Origin: Neptuniibacter sp. UBA6509
Lineage (GTDB): Bacteria; Pseudomonadota; Gammaproteobacteria; Pseudomonadales; Balneatricaceae
Direction: 5' to 3'
NCBI GenBank assembly: GCA_002435145.1
Contig: DJLT01000077.1
Coordinates: 1 to 53,310 of the forward strand
DNA: 53,310 nucleotides
The notes under the pieces were generated by a model. That model made no database searches, had not been told where the DNA came from, and worked only from the letters and a program-made list of their open reading frames with translations. Below, in pieces: positions 5,454-52,644 of the stretch. Positions within the stretch are counted from its first letter, which is position 1. Each line of letters starts with the position of its first letter. The position numbers were made by a program, and so were the translations under genes.

Positions 5454-5608
5454 TTGGCATTTAGACAGTTAAACAGTTAGAAAAGCTGTCGTTAGGCTGA
5501 ACTAGGGTGTTAATGGTTTAAGATGAAGCTCTGGCTAATTTGATCTATGCAGTTCTAGCTACTTTTCAGCATGGCCCCATCAATGAATAGAAAGCGAGTC
5601 TGCTGCCT

Positions 5609-5764: not shown

Positions 5765-5842
5765 TTTGTAGCTCTTACAATTAAGGCCCAAACTAGGCTA
5801 ATGACACATTATAGGTTTTTGTCAGAGAAAATCGAATATTAA

Positions 5843-6192
5843 GCACTCTTCATTATGGCCTGAACGACTGCTTATGTTGATAGGAGTGCTTATAAGGAGT
5901 CCAGTAACACTTGGAAGCATTCGAAACCCCTCTGTTAAAACCTTTTTTCAGCGAGATAAGCTCGTTTGTAACTTGTCGCTTAAAGTTAAAAGAGCGTAGC
6001 CGTAACGATCAATTCTATTTCTCGAGTTGGCGTGTTTTTTTGATTGAGTCATGCATTGAGTCTTATTTATATGATGTTGTTTATTTAGAATTATTTATAA
6101 GTCTAGACGTTTAAACCTGTAAGTAGATGAGAGAGTGAAATTCATTAACAATGAACAGTAATGGATATAAGGGTTGAGCGCTTCAGTTGTTT
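5843..6192. other. Intergenic region without a supported gene
   Basis: About 350 bases between the DUF2986 gene and the cytochrome P460 terminator. A TTG-initiated frame at 5911-6114 is present but has no family features. No RNA gene or clear promoter was recognised. Confidence 0.5.
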
Positions 6193-18043: not shown

Positions 18044-18248
18044 AGGTAAGCTCGCAAATCAATTCACTAAAATAGGGCTTATTATTTCATGGATAGGGCT
18101 GAAATGCTCAGCCGTATTAGAAATAGTACGAAATAATTATAGGGTTTTGTAAGGTCTTTATGTGCTTCAAGGTAATGTTCTACTCAACTAATAGAAGTTA
18201 TTATATTAAACTATTTGAATGTAAGTCTGCTTGTTTTTTGTGGTTATT

Positions 18249-25910: not shown

Positions 25911-25972
25911 TTGCATGAGGCTAATTTGCGGAGAAGTTTCTTCTAGCATAAAGTGCATATGATCAGTTGGAG

Positions 25973-27696: not shown

Positions 27697-30600
27697 GTGC
27701 TTTGTTTGAATAAAAATACGCTCCCACAAGGTGCTGCAGCCTTTGGTATGAGGGGTAAGTTAGTTCTTCTCTTTGTCTTAATAAAAGTTTTTCCTCTCAT
27801 TCTCATCGCTTGGGTGGCTTGGAACCAGTCATCTAAACTAGCTGAAATGCTAGGGTTTAGGTATGAAAGTTTAGCGGAGCTTTCTCGTGAGAGTTTGTCA
27901 GAGACAGGAGAACTAGCTGTTAATGATGCTGTGAAGGCACTTGATGAGAGAGCGCGTAACGAAATAGAACGTATAACAACGGATACGGCCAAATCTATAG
28001 CTCGTTTTTTGCATGCACGTGATCAAGATATTAGATTAGCCGCTGCATTAGTGCCTGATGAAGCTACCTATCAGACTTTTATTGCACATCGTCAATCTAA
28101 GCTAATGAACAGGGCTGATTGGGAGTTAAAGCCTGATGGTAGTGGTTGGGTCACTAAAGATAATAAGCAGCCAGGTGTTCCGGTTGTTTCATCGTTAGAA
28201 GCTAATGCTAAATCTTTCCATTCTTACCCTGCTGATACTAATGTCGACTTAAAAGATTCCTCGTTATATTTGGAGATGACCTTTATTGATTTGGAGGGCG
28301 TAGAGCGTTTAAAAGTCGTCAAATCTGAGCTTTTCACATCTGAGCTTAAAGATATCTCTGTAAAAGAAAATACCTTCATCAAAGCTGAATCTTATTTCCC
28401 TGCATTAAAAAAACTTAAGCCAGGCGATATCTATGTCTCTGATGTAATTGGGGCTTATGTTCCTTCTAGGATTATCGGGAAATATACACCTAAATCAGCT
28501 AAAAAAGCTGGCATTGAATTTGAGCCAGAAAAAGGGGCTTATGCGGGTAAAGAGAACCCCCTAGGAAGGCGCTTTCAGGGCATTATTCGTTGGGCAATGC
28601 CTGTGACCCGTAATGGTGTGAAGGTGGGTTATGTATCTTTGGCGCTGGATCATCGCCATGTGATGGCTTTTACCGATCATATAATGCCTACGGAGCAGCG
28701 GTATACGAATACGCCTGATGCTTCGGAGGGTAATTATGCGTTTATCTGGGATTATAAAGGCCGGAATATCGCTCATCCTAGGCACTATTTTATTGTGGGG
28801 TATGACCCTGAAACAGGGCAGCCGCAGGTCCCTTGGCTAGAGCAAAGTGTCTATGATGATTGGCAAGCTTCGGGCCTTTCTTATGCAGAATTTGAGCAGC
28901 AAGCAGCTACTTTTCGTGATCAAAGCTTAGAGCGTAAACCAGCTAAAGATTTAATGAAAACCGGGAATCGTGCTTTAGATTGTCGATACTTAAACTTTGC
29001 CCCTCAGTGTACAGGCTGGTTTGATTTGACTGAAAAAGGGGGATCCGGTTCGTTTACCATATATTGGAGCGGCTTATGGAAGCTCACGACAGCAGCCCCA
29101 ATTCCTTATTTTACTGGTCAATATGGAAATAGTGTGAGGGGATTTGGGTTTGTAACGGTTGGAGCTAACGTGAATGATTTTCACTTAGCTGCAGTGGCAT
29201 CCCGAAAAAGAATTGATAATAAGATTGACCTGATTGATGGGAAGATTCAGGAGGAGGCGTTAAAGGGACGATCAGTAATTGTAAGTAATTTGAGAGAGAT
29301 GGCGGAAAGGCTTACCGCTTCTACGTTGTTAATGATTGTGATTGTCATAATTATAGCAACTTGGATAGCATCTTATCTTACGCAAAGAATTACAGCTCTT
29401 ATTGCGGGTATTGCGTTATTTAAGCAGGGTGATAGGCAGTATAGATTTAAAACAACTGAAAAAGATGAGATGGGCTCTTTGGCGAATGCTTTCGATGAGA
29501 TGGCTGATGAGGTGGAGGGTCATCTTGTCCAGTTAGAGGATGAGGTTAAGCACAGGAAGAGTACAGAAGGAGAGTTGCGGCGCGTTCAGGAGGGATTAGA
29601 AGAGAGCGTAGCTGAGCGAACTCAGGAATTACTCGTTCAGATTGAAGAGCGCGTAAAAGCTGAGGAAGTAGTGAGGCATATAGCGCATCATGATGCGCTA
29701 ACAGGTTTGGCAAACAGGCGAGGTTTTCAGGACCAGTTAACTGAAGCATTAAAGCGTGCTGATCGTAATTCTAAGAAAGTCTCTTTAATGTTATTTGACC
29801 TAGATGGCTTTAAAGAGGTGAATGACACTTTAGGTCACGGGGTTGGTGATGAATTGCTTTGTGCTGTGGCTGCTTTACTTGAGGCGAATATTCGTGAGCA
29901 GGATATTGTTGCGCGCTTAGGGGGAGATGAGTTTGCAGTAGTTATGACCGATCTCGATAAGTCTGAGGGTGTTGTGAATACTGTACTGAGAGTGATTGAT
30001 ACTCTAAGTCAGCCTATACCGTTATCTGGTCATATGATTCGTACAGGGACAAGTGTTGGGATAACAGTGTACCCGGAAGATTCGGGTGACCCTGAGCAGC
30101 TTATGTTACATGCAGATTTAGCCATGTATCAAGCCAAGGAGAGTGGCGGGCAATGCTATAAGTTTTTTGAATGTCTTATGCATGACGATATCGTATTAAA
30201 GAAAAAAATAGAAAATGATCTGCATAGGGCAATACAAGAAGGTGAATTTTGTCTCTATTTCCAGCCTAGATATGACTATCAGTCATCAAAAGTTGAAGGT
30301 GTAGAAGCCTTGATACGCTGGAATCATCCAGAAAAAGGGGTGTTGTTACCGGGTGAGTTTTTACCTGTAGCGCAGCGATCAGGTTTACTACCTAGTATCG
30401 AGCGCTGGGTAATATATGAGGCATGCCATAAGGCGCTTAAATGGCAGTCATTAGGATTAAGTTTTGGTCGTGTGGCTATAAATGTATGCGCGACGGAGCT
30501 TCAGCAACCGGATTTTTATGATCGTGTTAAAGATGTTTTGGATCGATCAGGTCTAGAGCCCTCATTGTTTGAAATCGAGATTACAGAGCGTGCATTAATT

Positions 30601-30960
30601 GGTCATTATGGTGATGTTGTAAGTAATTTACAGAAACTGCGTGAGTTGAATGTTAGTGTGGCACTGGATGATCTAGGAGCTGAGCATTCGTCGTTGCAGC
30701 GTTTAATTGAGTGCCCTATAGATGTCATAAAAATAGATCGATTTTTTGTTGAACGTATAGGAGAGGTTAAATCTGAGGCTGTAATTGCTGCCTTGCTCAC
30801 TATGGCTAAAGCGACAGGTATACGTGTGGTTGCTGAAGGTGTCGAAACGGATAAGCAGTTAGATTTCTTATGTCGTTCTGATTGTGCGGTTATTCAGGGG
30901 TACTTGCACGCGAAGCCAATGCCTTCTGATGAACTTGAAGACTATTTGGCAAAGAATTAA
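27697..30960 (+). CDS. Membrane sensor GGDEF-EAL protein with large periplasmic region
   Basis: A 1087-aa dual-domain cyclic di-GMP protein. A membrane helix (about 22-40) is followed by some 500 periplasmic residues of Cache-like type, a second helix (about 547-570), a HAMP domain, a coiled coil, GGDEF (motif 742-746, REQD inhibitory site intact) and EAL (motif EAL 870-872). EAL metal and catalytic residues are kept (EITE, DD, IKID, VAEGVET), but the usual DDFGTGYSSL loop is changed to DDLGAEHSSL, which may reduce phosphodiesterase activity or dimer control. The GTG at 27697, a TTG at 27706 with TAAGG upstream, and an ATG at 27748 are all possible starts. Confidence 0.92.
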   Translation: MLCLNKNTLPQGAAAFGMRGKLVLLFVLIKVFPLILIAWVAWNQSSKLAEMLGFRYESLAELSRESLSETGELAVNDAVKALDERARNEIERITTDTAKSIARFLHARDQDIRLAAALVPDEATYQTFIAHRQSKLMNRADWELKPDGSGWVTKDNKQPGVPVVSSLEANAKSFHSYPADTNVDLKDSSLYLEMTFIDLEGVERLKVVKSELFTSELKDISVKENTFIKAESYFPALKKLKPGDIYVSDVIGAYVPSRIIGKYTPKSAKKAGIEFEPEKGAYAGKENPLGRRFQGIIRWAMPVTRNGVKVGYVSLALDHRHVMAFTDHIMPTEQRYTNTPDASEGNYAFIWDYKGRNIAHPRHYFIVGYDPETGQPQVPWLEQSVYDDWQASGLSYAEFEQQAATFRDQSLERKPAKDLMKTGNRALDCRYLNFAPQCTGWFDLTEKGGSGSFTIYWSGLWKLTTAAPIPYFTGQYGNSVRGFGFVTVGANVNDFHLAAVASRKRIDNKIDLIDGKIQEEALKGRSVIVSNLREMAERLTASTLLMIVIVIIIATWIASYLTQRITALIAGIALFKQGDRQYRFKTTEKDEMGSLANAFDEMADEVEGHLVQLEDEVKHRKSTEGELRRVQEGLEESVAERTQELLVQIEERVKAEEVVRHIAHHDALTGLANRRGFQDQLTEALKRADRNSKKVSLMLFDLDGFKEVNDTLGHGVGDELLCAVAALLEANIREQDIVARLGGDEFAVVMTDLDKSEGVVNTVLRVIDTLSQPIPLSGHMIRTGTSVGITVYPEDSGDPEQLMLHADLAMYQAKESGGQCYKFFECLMHDDIVLKKKIENDLHRAIQEGEFCLYFQPRYDYQSSKVEGVEALIRWNHPEKGVLLPGEFLPVAQRSGLLPSIERWVIYEACHKALKWQSLGLSFGRVAINVCATELQQPDFYDRVKDVLDRSGLEPSLFEIEITERALIGHYGDVVSNLQKLRELNVSVALDDLGAEHSSLQRLIECPIDVIKIDRFFVERIGEVKSEAVIAALLTMAKATGIRVVAEGVETDKQLDFLCRSDCAVIQGYLHAKPMPSDELEDYLAKN

Positions 30961-31007: not shown

Positions 31008-34000
31008 TTATCCACCGCTATTATCGAGCTTTAATTCAGCGGTGGAGTGAGAACATGCTGTTACCTTAACTTCTAGAATGCTCTCGTCGGATGGTATTAG
31101 CAGTGCCGCTATTTTTTCAGCGCTAAGGGGTTTGTGAAAGAAATAGCCTTGGAAAACTTCACAGCCAAGTTGGAGTAAAGTGTTTAATTGTTCCTTGGTT
31201 TCAACACCTTCTGCGATGGTATCTAAATTTAGGTTTTTGGCTAGATTGATTATGGTGGCGCATATTTCACTATCTTCTTCTTTACTATCACACTCTTCAA
31301 TAAAGGATTGGTCTATTTTTAGAATGTCTAAAGGTAACCTTTTTAGGTAGTTTAAGGAGGAATAGCCTGTCCCAAAATCATCGATAGATATACTGATATC
31401 TAGTGCTTTTAATTCTTCGAGTACTTTTATACAGCTTTCTATATCTTGTATTAATACTCCCTCAGTTATCTCTATCTCTAGTAATGTTCCAGAAATTGAG
31501 TAAAGGGTAAGCTGCTGCTTTATGAAGGGTAGAAGCTCATCGGATATCAGGTGTTTTCCTGAAATGTTAACAGCAACAGGCACTGGTGTTAGTCCTTGAG
31601 CCATCCATTGATGAAGCTGATTCAAGGCTTGGTTTATGACGACCTCACCTAATTGGATAATAAGATTGCTCTCTTCTGCAATAGGGATGAATTCTGCTGG
31701 TGGTATTAGCCCTTTTTCAGGGTGCTGCCAGCGAATTAAGGCTTCAAGGGCGATGACATTTTCTTGGCTACGGAATACCTTTGGCTGGTAGACAAGATGA
31801 AACTGTTGTTCAGCAATGCCAATTTTCATTAAACGTTCATAATTGATCGCTTTTGTAGCATTTTCAGCCATGTAGGGTTGAAAGATTTGATAGTTGTCTC
31901 GGCCGTTTTCTTTTGCGGTATACATCGCTATATCAGCTTCTTGGATAAGGTTGTCGGTTTCAACCTTTCCGTTAACTGATAGTGAAATTCCTATGCTAGT
32001 GGGGATATTAAATTGCTTTTGGCTAATCTCCACAGGCATTCTCATAATCTCCAAAATATTCCTGGCTTTGTTGCTTATTATCTCGTTATTGATCTCTCCT
32101 TTTATAACGACAACAAATTCGTCACCACCCCAGCGTGCGATGAGGTCCTCTGTTCTAGATACCTTAGTTAATCTGTTAGCAACTTCGCATAAAAGCTCGT
32201 CTCCTGCTTTGTGCCCGAGCGTATCATTAATCTTTTTAAACTTATCTAGATCTAGGAAAAACAGAGCGACGGTTTCACTATGTAATTTCGCCATACGTAT
32301 CGCTTCTGATAGGGATTTCATCATAAACGTACGATTAGATAAACTCGTTAAAGGGTCTTTATAAGCAAGAAATTTAAGTCGTGATTGAAGCTTTTGTTCA
32401 CGGGTAACATCACGAATATGTAATGTGAATTCTATAGGAGCATCATCCTTCATGCGTGTACTGGTTATAGTGACTTCAGCAGGGAAAGGGTGAGCAGATA
32501 TACGCTTAATTTGTATCGCATTGCGTCTATCTAGAAGAAGACCACTAGCCGAGCTGAACGAGTGGCGTAAGCTGTATTCGACAGACTGTCTATCGTCATC
32601 AAGTACAAAATATTGAGTGAATTTTTTTCCAACGACCTGCTTTTTTAAGCACCCTAAAGTACGTTCAGCCGAAGGGTTAAACTCGATGATTTTGCCTTCC
32701 CAATCGATTGATATAATACAATCCATAGACGAATCAAGAATAGCACTTTTGCGCTTCTCGCTGGCTTGAAACTGATCAATTGCAAAGTCTTTTTGTGACA
32801 TCTCATGGTTAATACGCGTTATAACCTGATTGTATTTTTGTGCGATTTGCCCCACTTCTGTAAAGGGTTCTTCATTTACGGGGGAGGTGAAATTACCTAA
32901 GTTTTGTTGTTGCTCCATCTCTCCTAGTAGATCGATCAGTTCTGTCGAAGCACGGTGCTCGGCGATATTCAGTCCCTGTTTTTCATCCTCTTCAGATACT
33001 CTTAAAGGGACAAAGCTATTTACAATACGCAGTAAAATATAGCTGATAGTAAAGCTATAAAGGCCAATAGAAATGATACCTGTAAGTTGACTAATCAGTT
33101 GCTGGGAAGAGGTTAAACCCGTATCTAACTGTTCAGGATTAGCAAAGAATGCGACGGCTAAAGTTCCCCAGATACCGGCCATAAGATGTGCGGGTATAAC
33201 CGCGAGAGCATCATCTATACGCTTTCTTTCCAGCCACAGTGTTCCGTAATACACTACTATGCCGGATACCATGCCGATAAAAGCTGCTGATAAAGGAGAG
33301 ACCGCATAGCAAGAGGCTGTGATGCCTACTAAGCCTGCAATAATACCATTAAGGATGTAACCAACATCGATAAAGCGTTTATCAAAATAATGTAAGCAGG
33401 ATGCAATGAGCCCTCCCCAGATAGCTGCAAGGAAGGTGTTTAGTAAGATTTTAGGAACTTGGTCATTGATCTGTAATACGCTGCCACCATTAAAGCCAAA
33501 CCAGCCAAACCATATTAAAAGTGTACCCATAGTTGCCATAGGTAGGTTGCTACCAGATGGAAACCTGCTTCTGCGATCATAGCGACCTAAGCGGGGACCT
33601 ATAATCAAAACGGCTGCTAAAGCCACCCATCCGCCTACAGAATGAACAACAGTGGAGCCTGCAAAATCTATAAAACCAATGGATTCTAACCAGCCTTGTT
33701 GCTCGCCTTGGTAAATGCTTGCCCATGCCCAATGTCCAGTAATGGGATAAATCACTACGCTGAGTATTGCTGTGACATATATGTACCCCATAAAGGTCAT
33801 TCTTTCTGCCGTTGCACCAGAAGTGAGCGTTGCGGCAGTACTACAGAACATCATTTGAAATAAGAAAAAGCATATTTCATAGGCTGAATTATCTAAGCCA
33901 AAGAGAAACTTATCACCACCTATAAGCCCAAATTGACTATTACCGAACATTAGTCCGAAGCCTAATAACCAGAAGAGAGATGTTGAAAGGATAAAGTCTG

Positions 34001-34127
34001 CAATGTTTTTAGCTGCAACGTTAATGCTGTTCTTACTGCGTGTGCGGCCACTTTCAAGGCACAAAAAACCTGCTTGCATCAGGAATACCAGCAGAGCAGA
34101 TACAATTAGCCACAAATTATTAAGCAT
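31008..34127 (-). CDS. Ammonium-transporter-domain PAS-GGDEF-EAL fusion
   Basis: A 1039-aa fusion. Residues 1 to about 395 are an Amt/Rh ammonium transporter domain of eleven helices; the twin histidines of the pore are present at His162 (STVVHSVGG) and His314 (PAHLMAGIWG), and the DFAGSTVVH motif keeps the conserved Asp. A linker, a PAS domain (about 450-570), GGDEF (motif 667-671 with intact RTED site) and EAL (motif 795-797, DDFGTGYSSL intact) follow. It probably reports ammonium availability or flux as cyclic di-GMP change. Start: ATG at 34127 with GAGGAG. No glnK gene accompanies it. Confidence 0.95.
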   Translation of the reverse strand: MLNNLWLIVSALLVFLMQAGFLCLESGRTRSKNSINVAAKNIADFILSTSLFWLLGFGLMFGNSQFGLIGGDKFLFGLDNSAYEICFFLFQMMFCSTAATLTSGATAERMTFMGYIYVTAILSVVIYPITGHWAWASIYQGEQQGWLESIGFIDFAGSTVVHSVGGWVALAAVLIIGPRLGRYDRRSRFPSGSNLPMATMGTLLIWFGWFGFNGGSVLQINDQVPKILLNTFLAAIWGGLIASCLHYFDKRFIDVGYILNGIIAGLVGITASCYAVSPLSAAFIGMVSGIVVYYGTLWLERKRIDDALAVIPAHLMAGIWGTLAVAFFANPEQLDTGLTSSQQLISQLTGIISIGLYSFTISYILLRIVNSFVPLRVSEEDEKQGLNIAEHRASTELIDLLGEMEQQQNLGNFTSPVNEEPFTEVGQIAQKYNQVITRINHEMSQKDFAIDQFQASEKRKSAILDSSMDCIISIDWEGKIIEFNPSAERTLGCLKKQVVGKKFTQYFVLDDDRQSVEYSLRHSFSSASGLLLDRRNAIQIKRISAHPFPAEVTITSTRMKDDAPIEFTLHIRDVTREQKLQSRLKFLAYKDPLTSLSNRTFMMKSLSEAIRMAKLHSETVALFFLDLDKFKKINDTLGHKAGDELLCEVANRLTKVSRTEDLIARWGGDEFVVVIKGEINNEIISNKARNILEIMRMPVEISQKQFNIPTSIGISLSVNGKVETDNLIQEADIAMYTAKENGRDNYQIFQPYMAENATKAINYERLMKIGIAEQQFHLVYQPKVFRSQENVIALEALIRWQHPEKGLIPPAEFIPIAEESNLIIQLGEVVINQALNQLHQWMAQGLTPVPVAVNISGKHLISDELLPFIKQQLTLYSISGTLLEIEITEGVLIQDIESCIKVLEELKALDISISIDDFGTGYSSLNYLKRLPLDILKIDQSFIEECDSKEEDSEICATIINLAKNLNLDTIAEGVETKEQLNTLLQLGCEVFQGYFFHKPLSAEKIAALLIPSDESILEVKVTACSHSTAELKLDNSGG

Positions 34128-41458: not shown

Positions 41459-41845
41459 CTAAGCCCTCATCATCTGATCCACCCGAACCCTATTAGCCAG
41501 AGCTAGAAGCATCGCTAATTTATTATCATTCTTCTTCAGCCCTCGATACCGAGCTTTAGTAAATCCAAACTGGCATTTAATTATCCTGAACGGATGTTCT
41601 ACTTTTGCCCTGATGCTGGCTTTCATATACTCAATGCTTATCGGTGCTTTATTGATACGAGGATGGCGTTTTAATGCGCTAACTTTGCTGGGACGTTCGG
41701 CGATATACCAATCAGCCTCAACGTCTTGCAGCTCTGACCTCTTATCTGCACCTCGATAACCCTCATCAACAAATATAAAGCGCTCTTCACCATGTAACAG
41801 TCTGCAGGCTTGGTTTAGGTCATGCTCATTGGCAGAAGTGGGTAG
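41459..41845 (-). mobile_element. Truncated IS5-family transposase
   Basis: About 130 C-terminal codons of an IS5-family DDE transposase: [22 protein letters not shown] (second catalytic Asp), [20 protein letters not shown] (catalytic Glu) and LANRVRV near the end. The N-terminal half, including the first catalytic Asp, is absent, so the element is dead. The 5' side is fused to an EAL gene fragment near 41840. A perfect 11-bp inverted repeat at 41419-41429 and 41439-41449 lies just after the stop codon. No terminal inverted repeat of a complete IS was recognised. Confidence 0.88.
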
Positions 41846-42263
41846 AGTATCTAAATGACCAAGGCATTGATCCAAAAACAATAGTTGTGGAAATAACTGA
41901 AGGGTTATTCTTAGAGGCTAATGACAATAATTTATCTGCACTTTTATATTTTCGTGATGCAGGTATTCAGGTCTCATTAGATGACTTTGGAGAGGGTTAC
42001 TCATCCTTAGCATACATTCAGAAATACGATATCGACTATCTGTAAATTGATAAAGAATTCGTACAAAATTTGCTTGCTTCAACAGATTCTAAAGTGTTGT
42101 GCGAATCTATTATTGTAATGGCTCATAAGTTGGTAATTGAGGCAATAGCTGAAGGGGTTGAAACTGAAAAGCAAATCAGACGTTAGCTTCTATGGGGTGT
42201 GATTTTGTCCAAGGCTATCTTCATTCAAAGCCCATCCCATTAAATGAATTTATAAAGTTACAA
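41839..42263 (+). pseudogene. Broken EAL-domain (c-di-GMP phosphodiesterase) gene
   Basis: The plus frame from 41839 reads [21 protein letters not shown], then SLDDFGEGYSSLAYI, IEAIAEGVETEKQ and, in a shifted frame, CDFVQGYLHSKPIPLNEF, the C-terminal half of an EAL domain. A TAA at 42043-42045 replaces the Lys of the KID motif, a TAG lies at 42184-42186, and a -1 shift follows before 42198. The N-terminal part, including the EAL motif itself, is missing and replaced by the IS5 transposase fragment. It is not functional. Whether it once carried a GGDEF domain cannot be told. Confidence 0.85.
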
Positions 42264-42467
42264 CTCTGGGTAAAGCTATTCGCTGTTAGGTCGGCTAGCA
42301 CAAACCAAACATCGCTATCCTTCACCTTTCCCCAAAATCCTGTCCTATAAACTAAAGTTTATGCGCATAAGCTGCTGTTTAAATTGGAAAAATCATAACT
42401 TAAGTTTATCGCTATTATCAGTAATTTCTTCTGTAATTAGCTTGTCATTTACATAAGGAGAATATCA

Positions 42468-42753: not shown

Positions 42754-43278
42754 ATGAAATCTATCTATGTTTGGGATTTAGGCGTACGTTTATTTCACTG
42801 GAGTTTAGTGGTTGCTTTTTTTGCAAATGCTTTTTTGATTGATGATGATAGCGACCTGCATAACTATGTAGGATATTTTGTTCTCGGATTCCTGACCTTC
42901 CGTCTTTTGTGGGGCTTTATTGGAACGAACTACTCGCGCTTTAATAGTTTTCCTGTATGTTTTGAAAGTTGTTTCAAACAGTTACAAGATATAGCGTTAC
43001 AACGCAATCATATACATATCGGGCATACTCCGTTAGGTGCTGTAATGATATATAATCTATTGCTATCTATAGCATTAATCGGATTGTCAGGGTATTTGAT
43101 GACGACTGATTGGCTATGGGGGGCTGAGTGGGTAGAAGAATTGCATGAAGGATTTGTTACTTGGGCTGAAATCTCAATTGTTCTTCATATTCTTGCTGTT
43201 ATTTTCGAGTCAAAGCGCAGCTCAGTTAACCTACCTCATGCAATGTTAACGGGTGTTAAAGAAATACCTGACCCTTGA
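42754..43278 (+). CDS. Cytochrome b561-type membrane protein
   Basis: A 174-aa four-helix di-haem cytochrome b of the bacterial b561 family, the type that moves electrons between quinone and periplasmic partners. It begins with the family motif YVWDLGVRLFHWSLV and has haem-ligand histidines in HWSL, DLHNYVG, HIGHTPLGA and IVLHILAV, with LLWGFIGTNYSRF between helices 2 and 3. The second gene of a three-gene operon, it overlaps or abuts the HTH gene. The redox partner is unknown. Confidence 0.92.
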   Translation: MKSIYVWDLGVRLFHWSLVVAFFANAFLIDDDSDLHNYVGYFVLGFLTFRLLWGFIGTNYSRFNSFPVCFESCFKQLQDIALQRNHIHIGHTPLGAVMIYNLLLSIALIGLSGYLMTTDWLWGAEWVEELHEGFVTWAEISIVLHILAVIFESKRSSVNLPHAMLTGVKEIPDP

Positions 43279-43286
43279 GGAAAACC

Positions 43287-43781
43287 ATGTTAAGTACAGA
43301 TCGTATTTCACACCCTTTTTTTATTTTAGCGATAATATTGCTGCAATCGGTCTGTGCTATATTTTTTATCTTTGATGTAGTTGGTGATCTTTCTAACTAT
43401 GAACTATCTAATGCAGAAAAACTCCATCTTGCTGCTGAATCAGTAGCATCAATTGCCCTTATAGTTGCGATTCTTTTAGAAATTAGTGTACTGCGAAATA
43501 TTTTATTACGTAAAGCTCACCTAGAAGATCAACTAACCCGCTCGCAGAAAAATTTACATGAAATTGTTGAGTATCAATTGCGAGAATGGAAACTTACGCC
43601 TGCAGAATTTGATGTTGCTATGTTCGTGTTTAAAGGCCTTAATCCACCAGAAATTGCAGAACTTAGGGGGACATCCGAGGGTACTATCAAAGCTCAATTA
43701 AGTGCTGTTTATCGCAAGGCCGACGTACAGAATCGCGCAGAGTTATTAGTATCAATAATAGATAATATATATTTAAATTAA
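43287..43781 (+). CDS. Membrane-anchored LuxR-type HTH regulator
   Basis: A 164-aa protein with two predicted membrane helices (about 8-30 and 47-67), a short coiled linker, and a C-terminal LuxR/GerE-type helix-turn-helix (about 102-160: LTPAEFDVAMFVFKGL, PPEIAELRGTSEGTIKAQLS). It lacks a receiver domain, so it resembles membrane-bound one-component regulators. The ATG at 43287 with GAGG six bases upstream is the likely start, in the tail of the preceding gene's intergenic gap; a TTG at 43275 overlaps the cytochrome stop. It probably controls its own operon in response to redox or membrane state. Confidence 0.88.
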   Translation: MLSTDRISHPFFILAIILLQSVCAIFFIFDVVGDLSNYELSNAEKLHLAAESVASIALIVAILLEISVLRNILLRKAHLEDQLTRSQKNLHEIVEYQLREWKLTPAEFDVAMFVFKGLNPPEIAELRGTSEGTIKAQLSAVYRKADVQNRAELLVSIIDNIYLN

Positions 43782-44174: not shown

Positions 44175-45860
44175 TCATTGCTTATAAATGCGATAGCAAT
44201 TTTTACCTGCCGCTTTTGCATGGTACATAGCGTCATCAGCCTCGCGTAGCAGCTCTTTAAGGTTTAATCCGTTTTTCTCATAAAAGGTCACCCCAATACT
44301 TACGGATATATTAACTGGGTTCATTGAGTTCCCTTTTGATGTAACTATGGCCTCGTTTACAGTACTAATAATACGCCCTACTAATGGGATGGCATCGTTT
44401 GGTGATGATAGATTTGTTAACACTGCTAAAAACTCATCTCCCCCTTGTCTAGCAATGATGTCAGCTTCTCTTATTGCATCTTTCATCCTTTTAGATGCGC
44501 ATATCAGCACTTCATCACCTACATCGTGACCAAAGGTGTCATTAATTTGTTTAAAACCATCTAAGTCTATAAAGAGTACTGCTATAACTGAGTTGTCACG
44601 AATACTACGTTGCTGCTCTTTCAAAAAGAGTTCTTTAAAAAGGTACCGATTAGGCAGTTGAGTGAGACTGTCATGTTTTGCAGAATGCTCAAGTTGCTCC
44701 GTTAATTTATGCCTTTCTGTTATGTCGTGCCCGTAGCCAACTACGCCGGTGATGGTGCCGTCATCATTTTTCAATGGAGTTTTTGTGATTTCGAGTAAGA
44801 CTTGTTGCTTTGATACTGGTGAAGTTACCCATGTTTCATTTTTCGAAGGCACACCAGAAGTTATTACTTCCTCTTCAATGGGTAAAACTTCATCGCATAG
44901 CTGTTGAGGAAATACGCTATAGCTATTTTTTCCAATGATATCTTCCTCATCTTTCCCTGCTAATAATGCAAAGCTTTGATTACAAGCGATGATATTACTG
45001 TCGAGATCTTTAAGACATATTGGATCTTGTATAGCATCTAGAATCTGTTTTTGGATACCTTGCAAGCGAAGTATCTCTTTGCGTGCTCGCACCCTTGCTG
45101 TTGTGTCTACCCAAGTTGCATGGCAGCGATCAGACTCTGCGCCACTGCTATTAACAATAGATATATTCAACAGTACATCTCGGGAGGAACCATCCGCCTG
45201 AGCTAACAGCAAGTGTTTATTTTCAACTTTATCATACCCACTTGTTAATAGTTGAGTATGGATTGCTTCAGCTTCTTTTAGGGAATCGGCATGATAAATA
45301 TCAAGTACATCCATGCCGATGAGGTGATTAAACTTCCAACCTAAACTCTTGGCTAAGGTCTCGTTGCAGTTAATAATTTTTCTGGTTTTAAGGTCGAATG
45401 TTGCGTGATAAATAGGAGAGTTGTGATAAAGATCTTTATACGAAGCCTCACTATGAGTCAGTTTCTGATATAACGCTGCTCTATCTAGGTTGTAATGAAT
45501 AATTCGTTCTAATGTAAAATCATTCAGTTCTGATTTTGGCAGACAATCATCGGCACCTTTATGAATAATGTCCAAAAGAGTTTGTTTATCATCTAGTGAG
45601 GTAATAACGATAACAGGGCAAACTGCTTTGATCTTCTCGAGCTGCCCAAGGGTACTTGTTACTACGCTGTCCCTCAGTGACAAATCAATAAACACCAAGT
45701 CATAGGGGGACTTGTTTAGTAACTCTAAACCTACGAATAGTGAATCATAATTATCTACAACAGCATTATGAAAAGAAGTTAGTTCCAGAATCGAAATAAA
45801 TAAATCAACGTGGTCTGGGTTATCTTCAAGTAAAAGTATTTTGATTGGGGTATCACTCAT
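44175..45860 (-). CDS. Response-regulator REC-PAS-PAS diguanylate cyclase
   Basis: A 561-aa cytoplasmic output protein. Residues 1-125 are a receiver domain (acidic pocket LLEDNPD, phosphoacceptor Asp59 in VFIDLSL, ITS as the Ser/Thr switch). Two PAS domains follow (about 140-260 and 270-385), then GGDEF (motif 473-477, intact READ inhibitory site). Phosphorylation by the linked histidine kinase would be expected to activate cyclic di-GMP synthesis. It is the last gene of the binding protein / kinase / regulator cassette, one base after the small regulator, so the genes are translationally close. Confidence 0.94.
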   Translation of the reverse strand: MSDTPIKILLLEDNPDHVDLFISILELTSFHNAVVDNYDSLFVGLELLNKSPYDLVFIDLSLRDSVVTSTLGQLEKIKAVCPVIVITSLDDKQTLLDIIHKGADDCLPKSELNDFTLERIIHYNLDRAALYQKLTHSEASYKDLYHNSPIYHATFDLKTRKIINCNETLAKSLGWKFNHLIGMDVLDIYHADSLKEAEAIHTQLLTSGYDKVENKHLLLAQADGSSRDVLLNISIVNSSGAESDRCHATWVDTTARVRARKEILRLQGIQKQILDAIQDPICLKDLDSNIIACNQSFALLAGKDEEDIIGKNSYSVFPQQLCDEVLPIEEEVITSGVPSKNETWVTSPVSKQQVLLEITKTPLKNDDGTITGVVGYGHDITERHKLTEQLEHSAKHDSLTQLPNRYLFKELFLKEQQRSIRDNSVIAVLFIDLDGFKQINDTFGHDVGDEVLICASKRMKDAIREADIIARQGGDEFLAVLTNLSSPNDAIPLVGRIISTVNEAIVTSKGNSMNPVNISVSIGVTFYEKNGLNLKELLREADDAMYHAKAAGKNCYRIYKQ

Positions 45861-45861
45861 A

Positions 45862-46293
45862 CTACTGTCCCGGCTGGCTCAATACATGATGTTGGTCAAG
45901 CTTCCAATAGTCGATCATTTCTTCTAATACGTCACCGTACATGCCTAATTCCGTGGGCTTTAGAATATAGCTGTTAGCTTTCAAGTCTAATGCCTTTTTA
46001 ATGTCCTTATTTGAGTTAGATGTAGTGAACATCACCACTGGGCATTTAAGTAAATTTGTTGATGACTTTATTTTGGTTAGAATTTCATGACCATCGTACT
46101 TGGGAATTTTCAGATCCAGTAAAACAAGCCATGGTAAAGGCTTTTCATTGTTTTCCAACAGAGCGATATAACTCATAGCCTCTTCACCATCGGATAGGCG
46201 TACAACCTCAATATCACAGTAGTTGTTGATATGAAATTCAGCGAGTTCAGCATGATCATCATCATCTTCTACCAGTAAAATATATTGGTTCAT
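45862..46293 (-). CDS. Single-domain response regulator (Rcp1-like)
   Basis: A 143-aa stand-alone receiver of the Rcp1/phytochrome-regulator type. Acidic residues are in LVEDDDDHAELAE, the phosphoacceptor is Asp60 in VLLDLKIPKYDG, the Thr switch is in MFTTSN and the Lys in YILKPTEL. With no output domain it likely relays phosphate or binds a partner. It overlaps the histidine kinase by four bases (ATGA) and is followed after one base by the REC-GGDEF protein, which fits a shuttle between the two. Confidence 0.95.
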   Translation of the reverse strand: MNQYILLVEDDDDHAELAEFHINNYCDIEVVRLSDGEEAMSYIALLENNEKPLPWLVLLDLKIPKYDGHEILTKIKSSTNLLKCPVVMFTTSNSNKDIKKALDLKANSYILKPTELGMYGDVLEEMIDYWKLDQHHVLSQPGQ

Positions 46294-48146
46294 ATTGCCT
46301 CCGCAGATTTTTCCGGCGATAAGTTAGTAATTAGTTCTTTGGGGAATGATAACCAGAAAGTTGCTCCATTTCCGGGTGATGATTCAACCCAAATTTTACC
46401 ACCATGATTAGTCATAACTTTTTTCGATACTGTAAGCCCAATTCCTGTACCTTCAAAATTTGAATCTAAACGGTAGAATAAACCAAATATTTTTTCTTGA
46501 TACTCGGTAGGAATACCTTGTCCATTATCTGCGAAATACAAAAAATGGTGTTTGGGGTCATCTTTTATACCCACTTTAATCGAGGTTCCATTATTCCCCG
46601 AACCATATTTTAGGGCATTAGAGAGTAAGTTTTCAAAAACTTGTAGAACTCTGCTTTCATTTGCAAAAATTGTAGGAAGGTTTCCTTCAATTTCCATAGT
46701 AGCACTAGAGCGCTTCATGCGTTCGGCTTGGCTGCTATAGAAAGCCCTAAACAGTTCATTGAGATCAATGCTTGTTTTATCCGAATCAGTACGCCCAACT
46801 CGGCTAAGTTCTAGTAAATCGTTAACCAATTGGCTCATTCGCCTGTTCGAGTTAACTACGCGATCAAGTTTTTCGATTGCCTGCTCAAATTTACCTTGTT
46901 TAGCTAGTTTTTGGATGATTCCAATAAATCCCATACTGGTAACTATGGGAGATTTTAGATCATGAGAAACCGTGTATACGAACTGTTCCAGCTCATCATT
47001 TGAGCGTTCCAGTTCTTGTTTCTTATGTTCGAGTTCAATATTGCTTTCTTTGTAACTCGTAGCCGCTTTAGTAAGCTCACCAATCTCGTCCATTTGTTCA
47101 TAATGTGGAATTTCCACATTCAAAGAACCTTTTGTAAGTTTATTAAAAGCATTGGTTATACGCTTAATCGGAAGCGTAATACTTCTGCTGATAGCCAAAG
47201 AGAGAAAACCTACACCTATTATGAAAATAAAACTTGAGCTAATTAGAGCATAAACGGTATTTTCAATGCTCTTAAAAACGTTAGTTTTAGTTTGTTGTGT
47301 TTGAGCTTTAATTAGAGCTGCATATTGTTTTGTTTGGTATAGGGTTTCATAGGCTTCAGCAGCCATCACTACATTCACTAAGAAAAGATAGCCCCGTGTC
47401 CGCTGCACAGCTTCGTAATAACTATTCTCATATTTGATTAACGCTGACGTTATAGCTCTATGCTCAGCGGACTTAGTAGGGTCTTCAGATTTAATTAGCG
47501 CCATCAATTTTTCAGTTTCTGCAATGCTGATGGATGCTTGTTTAATTCTTTCAGAATTCAGTGTATCGAAATAACGATATGCATTTTTTTCGATCTTCAG
47601 GAATGAAATCAGCATTTGGTTATAGAGTAGTTTAGTGTTTTCTTCTTTTTCGTTTGTAGAGGAAGATGCTATCAATTGTTCGATGAGCGTTTGTGCTTTA
47701 TTTGCATTGGAGCGAAGTGTTGTAATTACCAGAGTATTTTGTAATTGGCGTTGTTGACGTACTTCTTGAAAAGTTTTGAAATAGTTTTCTAAGTGTTGTT
47801 CTGTTGTGAATAACCTCTGATTTGCTACAGTATTGTTATGTAGGGCTTGGGATTTTAGTTGTTTGATCATTCCTTGATATATTTCAGCAACTCGATCTCC
47901 TGCGCTGTCATGCCCTTCGTAGATATATATCAGAGCTTGCCGTTGCATCTCGGACATTTGAACTGAGAAGTTAACGTTTTCGATCGTGCCGTCGGTGAAG
48001 GCAGAGTAATCTTGGAATTCTGTTTTTAGTTTATTTAAGGAAAAGAATGCAACAACTGCAATGAGTAGAGCAACGGCACCTAAAAGAATATAGCCAGAGT
48101 ATATACGTGATTTTAGGCCAAGTGCCTTTATTAAAAAATCGATCAT
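46290..48146 (-). CDS. Membrane sensor histidine kinase
   Basis: A 618-aa kinase. Helix 1 (about 12-35), a periplasmic helical sensor of about 240 residues, helix 2 (about 280-305), HAMP, a coiled coil, HisKA with His395 in VSHDLKSPIV, and HATPase_c with N (NLLSNALKYG), G1 (FADNGQGIP) and G2 (GTGIGLTVSKK) boxes. It ends with TFWLSFP. The periplasmic sensor is of the helical-bundle type able to meet a binding protein. It lies 12 bases after the Tat substrate-binding protein gene and overlaps the regulator gene by four bases. Confidence 0.95.
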   Translation of the reverse strand: MIDFLIKALGLKSRIYSGYILLGAVALLIAVVAFFSLNKLKTEFQDYSAFTDGTIENVNFSVQMSEMQRQALIYIYEGHDSAGDRVAEIYQGMIKQLKSQALHNNTVANQRLFTTEQHLENYFKTFQEVRQQRQLQNTLVITTLRSNANKAQTLIEQLIASSSTNEKEENTKLLYNQMLISFLKIEKNAYRYFDTLNSERIKQASISIAETEKLMALIKSEDPTKSAEHRAITSALIKYENSYYEAVQRTRGYLFLVNVVMAAEAYETLYQTKQYAALIKAQTQQTKTNVFKSIENTVYALISSSFIFIIGVGFLSLAISRSITLPIKRITNAFNKLTKGSLNVEIPHYEQMDEIGELTKAATSYKESNIELEHKKQELERSNDELEQFVYTVSHDLKSPIVTSMGFIGIIQKLAKQGKFEQAIEKLDRVVNSNRRMSQLVNDLLELSRVGRTDSDKTSIDLNELFRAFYSSQAERMKRSSATMEIEGNLPTIFANESRVLQVFENLLSNALKYGSGNNGTSIKVGIKDDPKHHFLYFADNGQGIPTEYQEKIFGLFYRLDSNFEGTGIGLTVSKKVMTNHGGKIWVESSPGNGATFWLSFPKELITNLSPEKSAEAI

Positions 48147-48158
48147 TTGCAGCGCCTC

Positions 48159-49421
48159 TTAAGCCAAGACAAACTCATTCCACTTCTGCAATGTATATTC
48201 ATAAGTGTCCATTACCGTGTTCCAGACGGCTACATTCTCAAAGCGTTTGACGTATGAACCACCGTTTCTAATGCTTCCTTCAGGTACTGATATCTTTCCG
48301 TCCGTCCCGTACAGAGCTTCTTGTGCGGGTTTTCCTTGATACCAGTAATCCCATTCTGCAGCTGACATATGCTTTTTGGAACGCTCTGGATTTGAGATGT
48401 AATAACCTTGCCTTGCAATGAAAGCACCGGGTTCACCTGATAACCACCAGTTCATAAATTGATAAGCGGCATCTTGTCGTTCACCTACAGATTTACGAGA
48501 TAAACACATAACACCATGCCAAGCTCTATAGCCTTCTTTAGGCGCAGCATAAATACAAGGAAAGCCTTGGCCATTCAGTGCACTAACACCGGGAGAGAAC
48601 ATGCTTTGTAGGTGTACTTCCTTGGAAGCCATCAATTCCACAGAATGAGGAACGGAAGTCCATACGCCCCTGAAATGCCCTTTTCGTTTCTTTGCAATAA
48701 TGATGTCAAATAGCTGATCCACTTCCGCACGAGTCATATTCCCCATATTTTTGAATGTCATTAAACCTTGGGCTTTAACCGCAAGAGCGAGGTCAAATAG
48801 ACCGATTGTGGGTGCGTTGACTATCGCGACTTTTCCATGGTGCTTTTCATCCAGTAGCCAGCCCCAACTCTCTGTTTCATATGGAATTCCTTTGGGGATG
48901 ATATCGGAGTTATATCCATAAGAGTCGGTGTTATGGACATAAGGCATAAAACTAATATGATTAGTTTGTGCAGAACTCAAGCTACCGTCTGGCTGAGCGT
49001 AAAGCAGCTTATAGGGAGCGTCTCCTAGCCCTAAGTGAGCGTTTGGGGAAATACGCCCCGTCTTACAAAGATTGTTTACTTCATCCCAGTAGGTCAGTTT
49101 TTTCGTATCAATTGCCTGTATGGCGTTGGCTTGCCATAAAACTTTTATACTGTTCGACCACTGTTCATAGAGATCAAATGAATCAGGATCAGTAGAGGCT
49201 CTGAGAAGCACCTCTGCACTACCGCCCGGATAAAATTCAATATTAATACCAAGATCTTTTTCAGCTTTTTGACGTATTTGCTCTTGAAGGGTTACGTGCG
49301 TGCCAACCACTTTAATGGTTGGTTTGGCGTTGTAAGCTTTTACAATTGACGGAAAAGCAATGCTAGCTGTAACAGCTATGCCGACATCTCTGCTGGCTCT
49401 GAGAAAGACTCTACGATCCAT
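48159..49421 (-). CDS. Tat-exported substrate-binding protein (polyamine-type)
   Basis: A 420-aa extracellular solute-binding protein of the PotD/PotF-like type. The N terminus MDRRVFLRASRDVGIAV carries a twin-arginine motif and hydrophobic stretch, so export is probably by Tat. The rest shows TIKVVGTHVTLQEQI, SFDLYEQWSN, PYVHNTDSYGYNSDIIP, and late WNTVMDTYEY. No ABC permease or ATPase gene is near; instead a kinase and two response regulators follow. That context suggests the protein delivers a ligand, perhaps a polyamine, to the sensor kinase. AGGAG lies before the ATG at 49421. Confidence 0.9.
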   Translation of the reverse strand: MDRRVFLRASRDVGIAVTASIAFPSIVKAYNAKPTIKVVGTHVTLQEQIRQKAEKDLGINIEFYPGGSAEVLLRASTDPDSFDLYEQWSNSIKVLWQANAIQAIDTKKLTYWDEVNNLCKTGRISPNAHLGLGDAPYKLLYAQPDGSLSSAQTNHISFMPYVHNTDSYGYNSDIIPKGIPYETESWGWLLDEKHHGKVAIVNAPTIGLFDLALAVKAQGLMTFKNMGNMTRAEVDQLFDIIIAKKRKGHFRGVWTSVPHSVELMASKEVHLQSMFSPGVSALNGQGFPCIYAAPKEGYRAWHGVMCLSRKSVGERQDAAYQFMNWWLSGEPGAFIARQGYYISNPERSKKHMSAAEWDYWYQGKPAQEALYGTDGKISVPEGSIRNGGSYVKRFENVAVWNTVMDTYEYTLQKWNEFVLA

Positions 49422-50034: not shown

Positions 50035-52644
50035 TTACAATATTCTCTCTATTTCTTCAGCGCATATAGGCTTGCTATACAGGTAACCTTGACCTTCATT
50101 GCATTTGGAGTCTTTTAAATATGCTTCTTGGGTTTTGTTTTCAATTCCTTCTGCAATGACAGTCAGCCCTAAACTTCTACCCATGCTGATTATCGCATTG
50201 ACTATTGCTTTATCGTCATTGTCATCAGGAATATTTTGAACAAAGCTCATGTCAATTTTCAGTTTGCTTATAGGCAGTTTCTTCAGGTAGCTTAATGATG
50301 AATAGCCAGTGCCAAAATCATCTACTGACAACATTATTCCCATTTTTCTGAGTTGTTCCAATTGGGCAATGGCACTGTCTGTCTTTTTCATAATAGCCCC
50401 TTCTGTCACTTCTAGCTCAAGACGAGATGGTGGTAGGCCGCTTTCTATTAATGCAGATGAAACAATATCTACCAATTCATTTTTATTAATCTGAACACTG
50501 GATATATTCACGGCAATACGACCAAATTCAAGTCCCTTATCCATCCATTCCTTACCTTGGCGGCATGCTTCATTTATCACCCATTCACCTATTTGATTGA
50601 TTAGCCCAGATTCTTCTGCCAGAGTGATAAACTTGTTTGGTGGAACTATCCCTAATGTAGAGTGATTCCATCTTACTAAGGACTCTAATCCAGCGATATG
50701 TTGCGACGATAGGTTAAATTGAGGCTGATAGAAAAGAAGAAACTCATTTTTCTCTATAGCGTTGCGTAACTCATTTTCCATGATTACACGTTCGAAAGCC
50801 TTCTTCGTTAAGTCTCTTGTATAAAATTGGAATGTATTACGACCTTCTTCTTTTGCTCGATACATTGCTGCATCAGCATTACGAATGAGGTTGACAGGAT
50901 TATCTCCGTCCATCGGAAACAGGCTCACACCAACACTCGCTGAAACTTGAATACTATGACCCTCAATCTCAAACTTTGAGGAGATTATGGTCATTATCTT
51001 CTCTATAGCACCAATGATGTGATCAGTATTATCGATATCTTCAAATAGAATGATAAATTCATCACCACCAATGCGAGCTACAGTATCTTCCTTTCTGGTA
51101 ATCGATTTCAAACCGGTAGCTATGTATTTTAGTAAGTTATCACCGGCGTGATGCCCGAAACTATCATTAATGTTCTTAAAGTTATCTAAGTCTATAAAAA
51201 GAATTGCCAATTTAGAATTGCGACGATTAGCATGCTTCAATGCTGCTTCTAGTTTTGAATTAAAACTAACTCGGTTTGGAAGACCAGTTAAAGCATCATG
51301 AAAAGCGAGGTGATCGAGCCTTTCCTGCGATTCTTTAATTGATGTTATATCACTAAAAACAGCAACATAATGTATTACCTCGCCTTTTTTATTTTTAACT
51401 TCGCTTATCGTTAGCCACTCTGGATAAATTGTATTATCTTTTCTTTTGTTCCAGACCTCTCCTCGCCATCTCCCAGTATTTTGTACGGTATTCCACATCT
51501 GTCTATAAAAATCATCATCATGTTTTCCAGAGCTGAGTATGCGAGTATTTTTACCAACTACTTCTTCTTTTAGGTATCCAGTAATTTCCGAAAATGATTG
51601 GTTAACATCTAAGATATCTGAGGCTTTATCAGTTATAATTACACCTTCTGTAGTACTTTCAAATACAATTGCTGATTGCCTCAACCTCGCTTCATTCTGT
51701 GCTCGTTGAGTGATGTCATGGGCGACACCAAGCACTCCAATGATTTGCCCATCGCTACCGTATATTGGAGTTTTGATTGTTTCTAGTAATACATCCTTTC
51801 CATCAGTAGCAAAATTAACCCACTCCTCATTTTTTGATTGGCAGCCAGAAGCTATAACCTTTTTGTCCATTGCGCGAAACAAATTTGCCAATGTCTCATC
51901 TACATAATCATAATCCGTTTGTCCCCTTATTTCAGACTCAGGTGCCCCAAAAAACTTTGCAAATTGATGATTACACATCAGGTAAACGCCATTAATATCT
52001 TTGAGCCACATCAAATCAGGGCTGGCATCAAAAAGTCCTTTTAATTGCGCAGTAGATGAAACAAGCTGTTCTTCTATGTCATGTTTCCTTTCGATGAAAT
52101 TTATTAAATATCCCAAGAAAATTGTCATGGGAGGATAGATAATGAAGAAAGGAATAGAGAGGTTTTTAATAACTGCCCACATGATTTCGTTTGGAAGTGC
52201 AAATAACCCAAACAAGGCGATAAAATGGCTGAAAAGTCCAAAAATAAATAAATTAACGACAGTTACAGGCAAATAGTTTGCTTTACGCAAATAGTATGCA
52301 GTTAGGCCTGAAACGGTACTTAACAGCACGACAAGCATACCAGCGATAGCTCCACTTCCTCCGAGCCATAGACGATATCCACCTGCCAGTATTCCTGCAG
52401 GTATTGCTGTCAATGGTCCACCAAATAAGCCGGCTACAGATACTAAAACTGAACGTGGGTCAATAATAACTCCAGTAGAGAAATGTACAGGCATACTCAT
52501 CCCTACAATGGCGATGAAACCAAATAGTATTCCCTGTAACAGACTGCTTCGTGGGTTGTTTTTACCAACGGCCCGAAATACAAAGGTAAGAAGCATCGTA
52601 AATGCGAGTAAAAGCGCAATGAGCTTTATAAGTTCAATCCACAT
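50035..52644 (-). CDS. 5TMR-LYT PAS-PAS-GGDEF-EAL membrane protein
   Basis: An 869-aa protein. Residues 1-190 are a six-helix 5TMR-LYT sensor (IIDPRSVLVSVAGLFGGPLT, ILAGGYRLWLGGSGA), as seen in murein-fragment-linked LytS-like proteins. Two PAS domains (about 200-320 and 325-445) follow, then GGDEF (motif 526-530, intact RKED site) and an EAL domain whose signature is ESL at 654-656; the other catalytic parts (VTEG, DDFGTGYSSL, LKIDMSFV, AEGIEN) are kept. It could make or degrade cyclic di-GMP. It is flanked on both sides by the long direct repeats, which suggests it moved or was duplicated as a block. Confidence 0.94.
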   Translation of the reverse strand: MWIELIKLIALLLAFTMLLTFVFRAVGKNNPRSSLLQGILFGFIAIVGMSMPVHFSTGVIIDPRSVLVSVAGLFGGPLTAIPAGILAGGYRLWLGGSGAIAGMLVVLLSTVSGLTAYYLRKANYLPVTVVNLFIFGLFSHFIALFGLFALPNEIMWAVIKNLSIPFFIIYPPMTIFLGYLINFIERKHDIEEQLVSSTAQLKGLFDASPDLMWLKDINGVYLMCNHQFAKFFGAPESEIRGQTDYDYVDETLANLFRAMDKKVIASGCQSKNEEWVNFATDGKDVLLETIKTPIYGSDGQIIGVLGVAHDITQRAQNEARLRQSAIVFESTTEGVIITDKASDILDVNQSFSEITGYLKEEVVGKNTRILSSGKHDDDFYRQMWNTVQNTGRWRGEVWNKRKDNTIYPEWLTISEVKNKKGEVIHYVAVFSDITSIKESQERLDHLAFHDALTGLPNRVSFNSKLEAALKHANRRNSKLAILFIDLDNFKNINDSFGHHAGDNLLKYIATGLKSITRKEDTVARIGGDEFIILFEDIDNTDHIIGAIEKIMTIISSKFEIEGHSIQVSASVGVSLFPMDGDNPVNLIRNADAAMYRAKEEGRNTFQFYTRDLTKKAFERVIMENELRNAIEKNEFLLFYQPQFNLSSQHIAGLESLVRWNHSTLGIVPPNKFITLAEESGLINQIGEWVINEACRQGKEWMDKGLEFGRIAVNISSVQINKNELVDIVSSALIESGLPPSRLELEVTEGAIMKKTDSAIAQLEQLRKMGIMLSVDDFGTGYSSLSYLKKLPISKLKIDMSFVQNIPDDNDDKAIVNAIISMGRSLGLTVIAEGIENKTQEAYLKDSKCNEGQGYLYSKPICAEEIERIL

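Follow-up and report, generated by a model that had tools for sequence, protein, structure and literature searches.

Receptors that are driven by solute-binding proteins (SBPs) are considered widespread, and they include kinases and cyclic di-GMP enzymes, according to a 2022 survey (PMC9602780). The closest described systems are NspS-MbaA, where the PotD-like SBP NspS is reported to act on a GGDEF-EAL protein (PMC9993111), TorT-TorS and the arsenite-sensing AioX-AioS-AioR. Here we describe a cassette of four genes on the minus strand of a 53,310-nucleotide stretch of DNA from Neptuniibacter sp. UBA6509 (contig DJLT01000077.1; the whole stretch is called the window below). In our opinion the cassette is likely to be a binding-protein-dependent receptor, in which the SBP would act on the kinase and the kinase on a receiver and a cyclase, with cyclic di-GMP changed as the result. 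Its parts, with the evidence for each (open reading frame is abbreviated ORF), are:

48159..49421, minus strand: SBP, 420 amino acids (ORF list, Pfam SBP_bac_8 at 3.6e-15, structural model, Foldseek, tree)
46290..48146, minus strand: sensor histidine kinase, 618 amino acids (ORF list, Pfam, sensor model with pLDDT 93.3, Foldseek)
47148..48146, minus strand: N-terminal sensor module of the kinase, residues 1-333, with the fold of McpS HBM, PilJ and TorS (model, Foldseek)
45862..46293, minus strand: single-domain response regulator, 143 amino acids, phospho-acceptor D60 (ORF list, Pfam Response_reg)
44175..45860, minus strand: REC-PAS-PAS-GGDEF diguanylate cyclase, 561 amino acids (ORF list, Pfam; D59, GGDEF, I-site RxxD)

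The packing that the original prediction had described is borne out by the ORF list: 12 bases separate the SBP and kinase genes, the kinase and receiver genes overlap by 4 bases, and 1 base lies between receiver and cyclase. The same is true of the domains it had named, which Pfam gives as SBP_bac_8, HAMP-HisKA-HATPase_c, Response_reg and Response_reg-PAS-PAS-GGDEF. The kinase runs from a membrane segment through a periplasmic six-helix bimodular sensor and a second membrane segment (both segments placed by eye) to HAMP, HisKA and HATPase_c. The phosphorylation residues are intact in the kinase (H395), the receiver (D60) and the REC domain of the cyclase (D59, together with T87 and K109), and the cyclase has GGDEF at 473-477 and an I-site, READ, at 464-467. 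The presence of four real genes at these coordinates and spacings, with intact active sites, is thereby confirmed. By its motifs the last protein is a diguanylate cyclase under REC control, since both the GGDEF motif and a phosphorylatable REC are intact; its activity is predicted.

The central result concerns the pairing of the SBP with the kinase. A scan for similar loci, with one genome per species, gave 114 confirmed stretches, and the best 80 were kept (59-77% SBP identity). They span Gamma-, Beta-, Zeta- and Alphaproteobacteria, Magnetococcales, Desulfobulbaceae, SAR324, Planctomycetes and Verrucomicrobia. The same-strand ORF next to the SBP gene matches the kinase, at least partly, in 80 of 80 relatives, with the sensor gene in broken frames in L009 and L024. 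Under a stricter test, with the match inside the sensor region and a start at most 500 bases away, 77 of the 80 pass, and L038, L041 and L056 fail. The gene is thus linked to a kinase rather than to a permease, as had been claimed, and within this close group the arrangement named as speaking against the claim, an SBP always followed by a permease, does not occur. Whole genomes tell the same story: among 398 genomes of the phylum, SBP matches above 500 bits and sensor matches above 220 bits share one set of 31 genomes, in 31 of 31 the two genes adjoin on one strand of one contig, and the sensor matches in the remaining genomes reach at most 187 bits. The whole-genome set and the locus set overlap, several organisms being in both. 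In a draw from the class, 4 of 369 genomes, source genome included, have the receptor-type SBP. Because the adjacency recurs in all 80 relatives and in all 31 genomes, the pairing is beyond chance. Judged by gene linkage, one criterion for SBP-dependent receptor systems, the SBP would belong with a receptor and not with a permease. It also seems that the pair is mobile as a unit, as the nearest SBPs and the nearest sensors to those of the window are both from Desulfobulbaceae (L006, L013), a different phylum from that of near relatives such as Nitrosomonas.

Certain points weigh against so simple a picture. The 500- and 220-bit cut-offs were placed in gaps of the match lists after the lists had been viewed. 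In each genome no more than the 4-5 best candidates were scored, and unpaired copies with weaker matches may have escaped. The distances of SBPs and sensors do correlate over 57 loci, in favour of the pairing (Mantel r 0.83, with 0 of 2000 permutations as high), but this value is inflated by shared ancestry, which alone could give it. Further, according to PMC11113362 the Pseudomonas aeruginosa kinases AgtS and AruS did not bind to their neighbouring SBPs, and therefore the adjacency of an SBP_bac_8 gene and a kinase is not always functional.

That precedent speaks for the view that the SBP works for a transporter whose genes lie elsewhere and that its place beside the kinase is not functional, and the genome does have 13 BPD_transp_1 matches in its other parts, with 0 on the contig of the window. 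We regard this view as most improbable. The co-occurrence and adjacency of SBP and sensor in 31 of 31 genomes speak against it, the only other SBP_bac_8 match of the genome lies in a cluster of its own that includes a fused permease and an ATPase-like gene, and the transporter-linked cousins of the SBP keep their permeases in the operon at 14 of 14 loci.

These cousins (35-41% identity; L113-L118 and L171-L178) belong, in every locus examined, to operons that also encode an ATPase and two permeases, and no sensor gene was found in these 14 loci. Their starts are Tat-like by eye (twin-arginine translocation). Nine of the 14 loci have a gene similar to Asp/Glu/hydantoin racemases, hydantoinase B is present in L117, and LamB/YcsF in L116 and L117, which hints at amino-acid- or hydantoin-like substrates for the cousins, too weakly for a claim. 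Since cousins at 35-41% identity sit in operons of ABC (ATP-binding cassette) transporters, the receptor-linked group appears to have been co-opted from transport; the direction, from transport to signalling, is what we infer.

Around the receptor-linked genes themselves the picture is different. No ABC permease or ATPase was detected in the window, among 61 ORFs of at least 80 amino acids compared with 21 seed proteins, as the original prediction had stated. With the same 21 seeds, a PotBC-type permease pair was not found within 6 kb of the SBP gene in any of the 80 loci, 14 of which offer less than 6 kb on one side. Among L002-L081 ABC-like genes occur within this distance in three loci only, none of them a PotBC-type pair: an ATPase-like gene on the other strand in L002, an ATPase-like ORF of 231 amino acids upstream in L005, and OppB/OppC-like genes downstream in L019.

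The SBP begins with MDRRVFLRAS, a Tat-like signal by eye, which agrees with the Tat-type export proposed for it. The motif RRxx[hydrophobic] precedes the mature part in 60 of the 80 relatives, and all of the remaining 20 have KR. By its model (pLDDT 90.6) the protein has the PotF/PotD fold: Foldseek returns PotD, PotF, YdcS and SpuD structures with E of about 1e-17 to 1e-15, and hhalign matches the SBP group with 16 PotF-like proteins at E 1.5e-9. The only NCBIfam family that the window SBP matches is PotF, with 20.3 bits against a cut-off of 636, and at 1e-5 no NCBIfam family was found for the receptor-linked L017 and L042, the ABC-linked L113 or a relative without signal sequence, L168. A maximum-likelihood tree of 74 SBPs comprised 58 receptor-linked proteins (the window and 57 of the 80 loci), 12 ABC-linked ones (L118 and L171 were excluded for uncertain ORF starts) and 4 without a signal. 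Each of these groups lies on one side of a branch, with SH-aLRT supports of 99, 100 and 95 respectively, in a tree from a quick search with long branches flagged and the root not known.

The third group (44-46% identity) lacks an evident signal sequence, its proteins beginning at the mature region, and lies beside a gene that is CobW-like (a GTPase) by eye; perhaps it is a cytoplasmic use of the same fold. Its members are:

L167, 8527-9747: signal-less SBP relative
L168, 5139-6314: signal-less SBP relative
L169, 4988-6163: signal-less SBP relative
L170, 5642-6838: signal-less SBP relative

Separately, an ORF of 133 amino acids in L119 (G365, 5501-5902) matches only the C-terminal part of the SBP, at 48% identity, and has no sensor match beside it.

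The original prediction called the binding protein polyamine-like, which holds for its PotF/PotD-like fold; as regards a polyamine as ligand we came to a different opinion. In PotF, as described in PMC8666671, the ligand is contacted by S38, D39, D247, S85, S87, A182, E185, D278 and L348, the aromatic box consists of W37, W244 and F276, and among PotF homologues W37 is 100% conserved and D39, E185, D247 and D278 at least 96%. A profile alignment places T41 of the SBP at W37, V43 at D39, I206 at E185, P277 at D247 and G303 at D278, the register near D247 and E185 depending on this one alignment; the change of D278 to G was seen independently in an hmmsearch alignment to PotF chains. T41, V43, I206, P277 and G303 do not vary among the receptor-linked SBPs (58 of 58 for each), nor does W301, which takes the place of the box aromatic F276. 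The 16 PotF-like proteins keep D247 and D278 in 16, W37 and D39 in 15 and E185 in 13 cases. With four PotF carboxylates and W37 replaced by other invariant residues, the polyamine ligand was rejected as a candidate, and by its pocket residues the SBP probably binds something else. The ABC cousins share most of the replacements (8 to 12 of 12 per position), and R299, W301 and P277 are kept in 12 of 12 aligned cousins. Because most of the replacements are common to the cousins, the loss of the polyamine residues seems to be older than the change of partner.

This bears directly on a second view of the cassette, that of the original prediction, namely that it senses a polyamine in the manner of NspS-MbaA, a two-component system having been inserted between sensor and cyclase. 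Such a sensor would be in keeping with the fold of PotF, PotD and SpuD and with the precedent of NspS. We consider it very unlikely, given that the five replacements stand in all 58 proteins at positions which most PotF-like proteins keep, and that NspS itself retains W41, D236, W261 and D263 (PMC9993111). Moreover, SBP_bac_8 proteins predicted to bind polyamines in fact preferred GABA (gamma-aminobutyrate) or 5-aminovalerate, as PMC11113362 reports. We would warn against naming such proteins spermidine/putrescine-binding by fold alone. Since the pocket is conserved, the search for the ligand comes down to one tractable question, whose answer would name the signal that is coupled to kinases and cyclic di-GMP.

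The sensor was modelled over residues 1-333 with 65 sequences (pLDDT 93.3), as six long helices and a short first helix. Foldseek matches it best with the McpS HBM domain (E 3.4e-5, TM-score 0.84 by target length, 12% identity) and next with PilJ and TorS (E about 2-5e-3). At the level of fold, as modelled, it is a helical-bimodular domain of the McpS/TorS type. No Pfam family was found in the window sensor at E 0.01; over the 65 sensor domains HAMP alone matches more than three members, and Pfam HBM matches one of 65, at E 0.0027. The best 25 of 70 NCBIfam families with matches to the kinase all score below their own cut-offs. The most conserved part of the sensor is a motif close to RGYLFLVNVVMA, ahead of the second membrane helix. 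Mean column identity is 57% in the SBP and 26% in the sensor, a pattern that is expected if the ligand stays constant while the sensor drifts.

The output is where our comparison departs from the original prediction, which asked whether the four genes keep together across genomes. SBP and kinase do; receiver and cyclase are loosely linked to them. The 79 downstream receptors divide into 41 kinases, 28 kinases with REC, 8 with GGDEF and 2 with neither (L009, L024), by a REC test with a one-sequence phmmer search that misses hybrids such as L004, L016 and L070, which have REC by Pfam. The GGDEF-fused receptors come from Marinobacterium, Marinobacter, Halomonas and Guyparkeria, and three of the eight were checked with Pfam. 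In 10 of the other 71 receptors a GGDEF ORF lies in the run of at most three downstream same-strand ORFs, the one in L024 being a piece of 126 amino acids behind the broken sensor. Counting genes of at least 150 amino acids at the same loci, 9 of 52 have GGDEF in the downstream runs versus 10 of 328 away from the cassette. The order SBP, histidine kinase, response regulator and REC protein (by Pfam) ends in REC-PAS-GGDEF-EAL in L002 and in REC-GGDEF in L079; in L028 and L042 a response regulator and REC-GGDEF come only after a second kinase-type gene, a PAS kinase in L042. The receptors of L011, L016 and L070 carry REC and Hpt domains by Pfam.

Several of these results count against a fixed route to cyclic di-GMP. 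By script, 13 of 79 loci have a single receiver after the receptor, at least L050 having been missed, and a response regulator with REC-GGDEF directly after the kinase, as in the window, is found in two of the 79 (L002, L079). In L005, L008 and L023 the order of SBP, kinase and response regulator ends in REC-PAS-histidine kinase-REC instead. As output modules are swapped between relatives, the kinase is loosely tied to the genes for receiver and cyclase. The genome has 99 GGDEF matches in 3.88 Mb (a few being pieces of one domain), 6 of them on this 53-kb contig, so that a GGDEF neighbour is less surprising and the argument from neighbourhood is weakened.

One may therefore propose that SBP and kinase cooperate, while receiver and cyclase are loosely attached, the conserved role of the kinase is to control other targets, and cyclic di-GMP is one of several interchangeable outputs or coincidental. 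This agrees with the outputs of the receptors, which vary between kinase, hybrid kinase and GGDEF, with the 50 of 79 relatives that by script have neither an adjoining single receiver nor a downstream GGDEF ORF, and with the abundance of GGDEF in the genome and on the contig. It is opposed by the tight packing seen here (the 4-base overlap and the 1-base gap), by the fusion of the sensor itself to GGDEF in 8 relatives, and by the third protein, whose N-terminal 180-210 residues, covering REC and the beginning of PAS, are 46% identical to the downstream protein of L008 and 37% to that of L005, a recurring REC partner. In our opinion this proposal is rather unlikely, yet it is the most serious rival to a receptor that reaches the cyclase. 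The proposed flow from ligand to cyclic di-GMP is partly supported, and is weakened by the swapping of outputs; in the window, cyclic di-GMP as output is plausible as a recurring variant and is not a fixed property.

The phosphorelay that the original prediction placed between binding protein and cyclase is not supported in the strict sense (His-Asp-His-Asp), because that needs an Hpt domain between the two receivers, and Pfam found none in the cassette. The genome, 91% complete, has 12 Hpt matches, none in a short stand-alone frame and the smallest in a frame of 369 amino acids, though the Hpt domain of a larger protein elsewhere could still serve. One kinase that feeds two receivers is the simpler reading.

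Taken as a binding-protein-dependent receptor, the cassette would work as follows. The Tat-exported SBP, which would descend from ABC-transporter SBPs, would bind a small ligand, probably no polyamine, and when loaded would dock on the helical-bimodular sensor that the kinase has in the periplasm. HAMP would relay the signal, switching autophosphorylation at H395 in one sense or the other. The phosphate at H395 could pass to two acceptors: D60 of the free receiver, a protein that is perhaps a sink or a second branch, and D59 in the REC of the cyclase, by which cyclic di-GMP would be altered. The early links of this chain rest on co-occurrence, the last ones on gene order and intact motifs. Sequence comparison gives the pairing, the kinship with transporter SBPs, the loss of polyamine residues and the intact catalytic motifs, and it detects no transporter beside the pair.

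We are inclined, by a modest measure, to go further and to propose a cross-phylum family of two-part receptors. A strongly conserved Tat-exported SBP, with the positions that correspond to the PotF pocket invariant in 58 of 58 members from several phyla, would have departed from ABC transport a single time and since then been combined with kinases, hybrid kinases or diguanylate cyclases by way of a helical-bimodular sensor subfamily that is new. As the sensor is much less conserved than the SBP, all members would report the same extracellular compound, one that is not a polyamine. If true, the family would feed signalling that partly controls cyclic di-GMP in many bacteria, mostly of aquatic genera. 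One SBP group with one sensor type, and an output that changes from kinase to cyclase, would also amount to natural chimeras for studying how binding proteins switch helical sensors. No paper on this SBP-sensor family was found by title or abstract in the open-licence literature, which is weak evidence of absence.

The 6 GGDEF matches of the window, one of them in the cassette itself, are at 18231-20201, 25967-27286, 27697-30960, 31008-34127, 44175-45860 and 50035-52644. One neighbour outside the cassette deserves its own line:

50035..52644, minus strand: 5TMR-LYT-PAS-PAS-GGDEF-EAL protein, 613 bases upstream of the SBP gene (ORF list, Pfam)

It resembles DibA-type phosphodiesterases (NCBIfam E 3.4e-223, though under the cut-off) and is a possible counter-enzyme. 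The protein at 31008-34127 (minus strand, 1039 amino acids) is an ammonium transporter (Amt) fused to PAS-GGDEF-EAL, possibly an ammonium transceptor that acts on cyclic di-GMP. At 7409-9421 (plus strand, 670 amino acids) a FIST sensor is fused to the signalling domain of a chemoreceptor (MCP). At 42754-43781 (plus strand) a cytochrome b561-like gene overlaps by 4 bases with an ORF whose C-terminus carries a LuxR-type helix-turn-helix, preceded by membrane helices that were placed by eye. About 2.3 kb from the end of the cassette lies a partial DDE transposase ORF (41459-41881, minus strand, 140 amino acids, TTG start). No direct repeats were found around the cassette, and there is one overlapping palindrome, at 42348-42381. 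Promoter-like sites number 12 versus 16.8 in shuffles, and terminator-like sites 14 versus 5.1; the latter all lie within the four genes and are therefore uninformative on operon ends.

It remains to set the cassette beside the known systems. NspS-MbaA (Vibrio cholerae, Sinorhizobium meliloti) resembles it in that a gene for a PotD/PotF-like SBP adjoins that for a HAMP membrane receptor with cyclic di-GMP output (PMC9993111), and the relatives with a GGDEF-fused sensor in Marinobacter, Halomonas, Marinobacterium and Guyparkeria have nearly the same layout. The window SBP differs by the missing polyamine residues, and its receptor by a HisKA-HATPase_c kinase and receivers between sensor and cyclase and by having no EAL domain. 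MbaA is described with SGDEF and no RxxD (PMC9993111), whereas the window cyclase has GGDEF with RxxD.

TorT-TorS is similar in that a periplasmic binding protein controls a kinase, and the sensor folds are related by Foldseek. TorT is a binding protein of another class than the window SBP. TorS is a hybrid kinase with REC and Hpt, as are several of the relatives, whereas the window kinase has neither, and the match to TorS is weak (Foldseek E about 3e-3; TIGR02956 far below its cut-off). McpS HBM has the same fold as the window sensor and is the domain of a chemoreceptor, crystallised with malate and succinate. AioX-AioS-AioR is, like the cassette, a cluster of SBP, kinase and response regulator, and AioX, like the SBP group of the window, provides signalling members within a family otherwise of ABC transporters (PMC5908839). 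According to the same source the structural homologue of AioX is PhnD and AioR acts at a promoter, whereas the window combines a PotF-like SBP with a cyclase.

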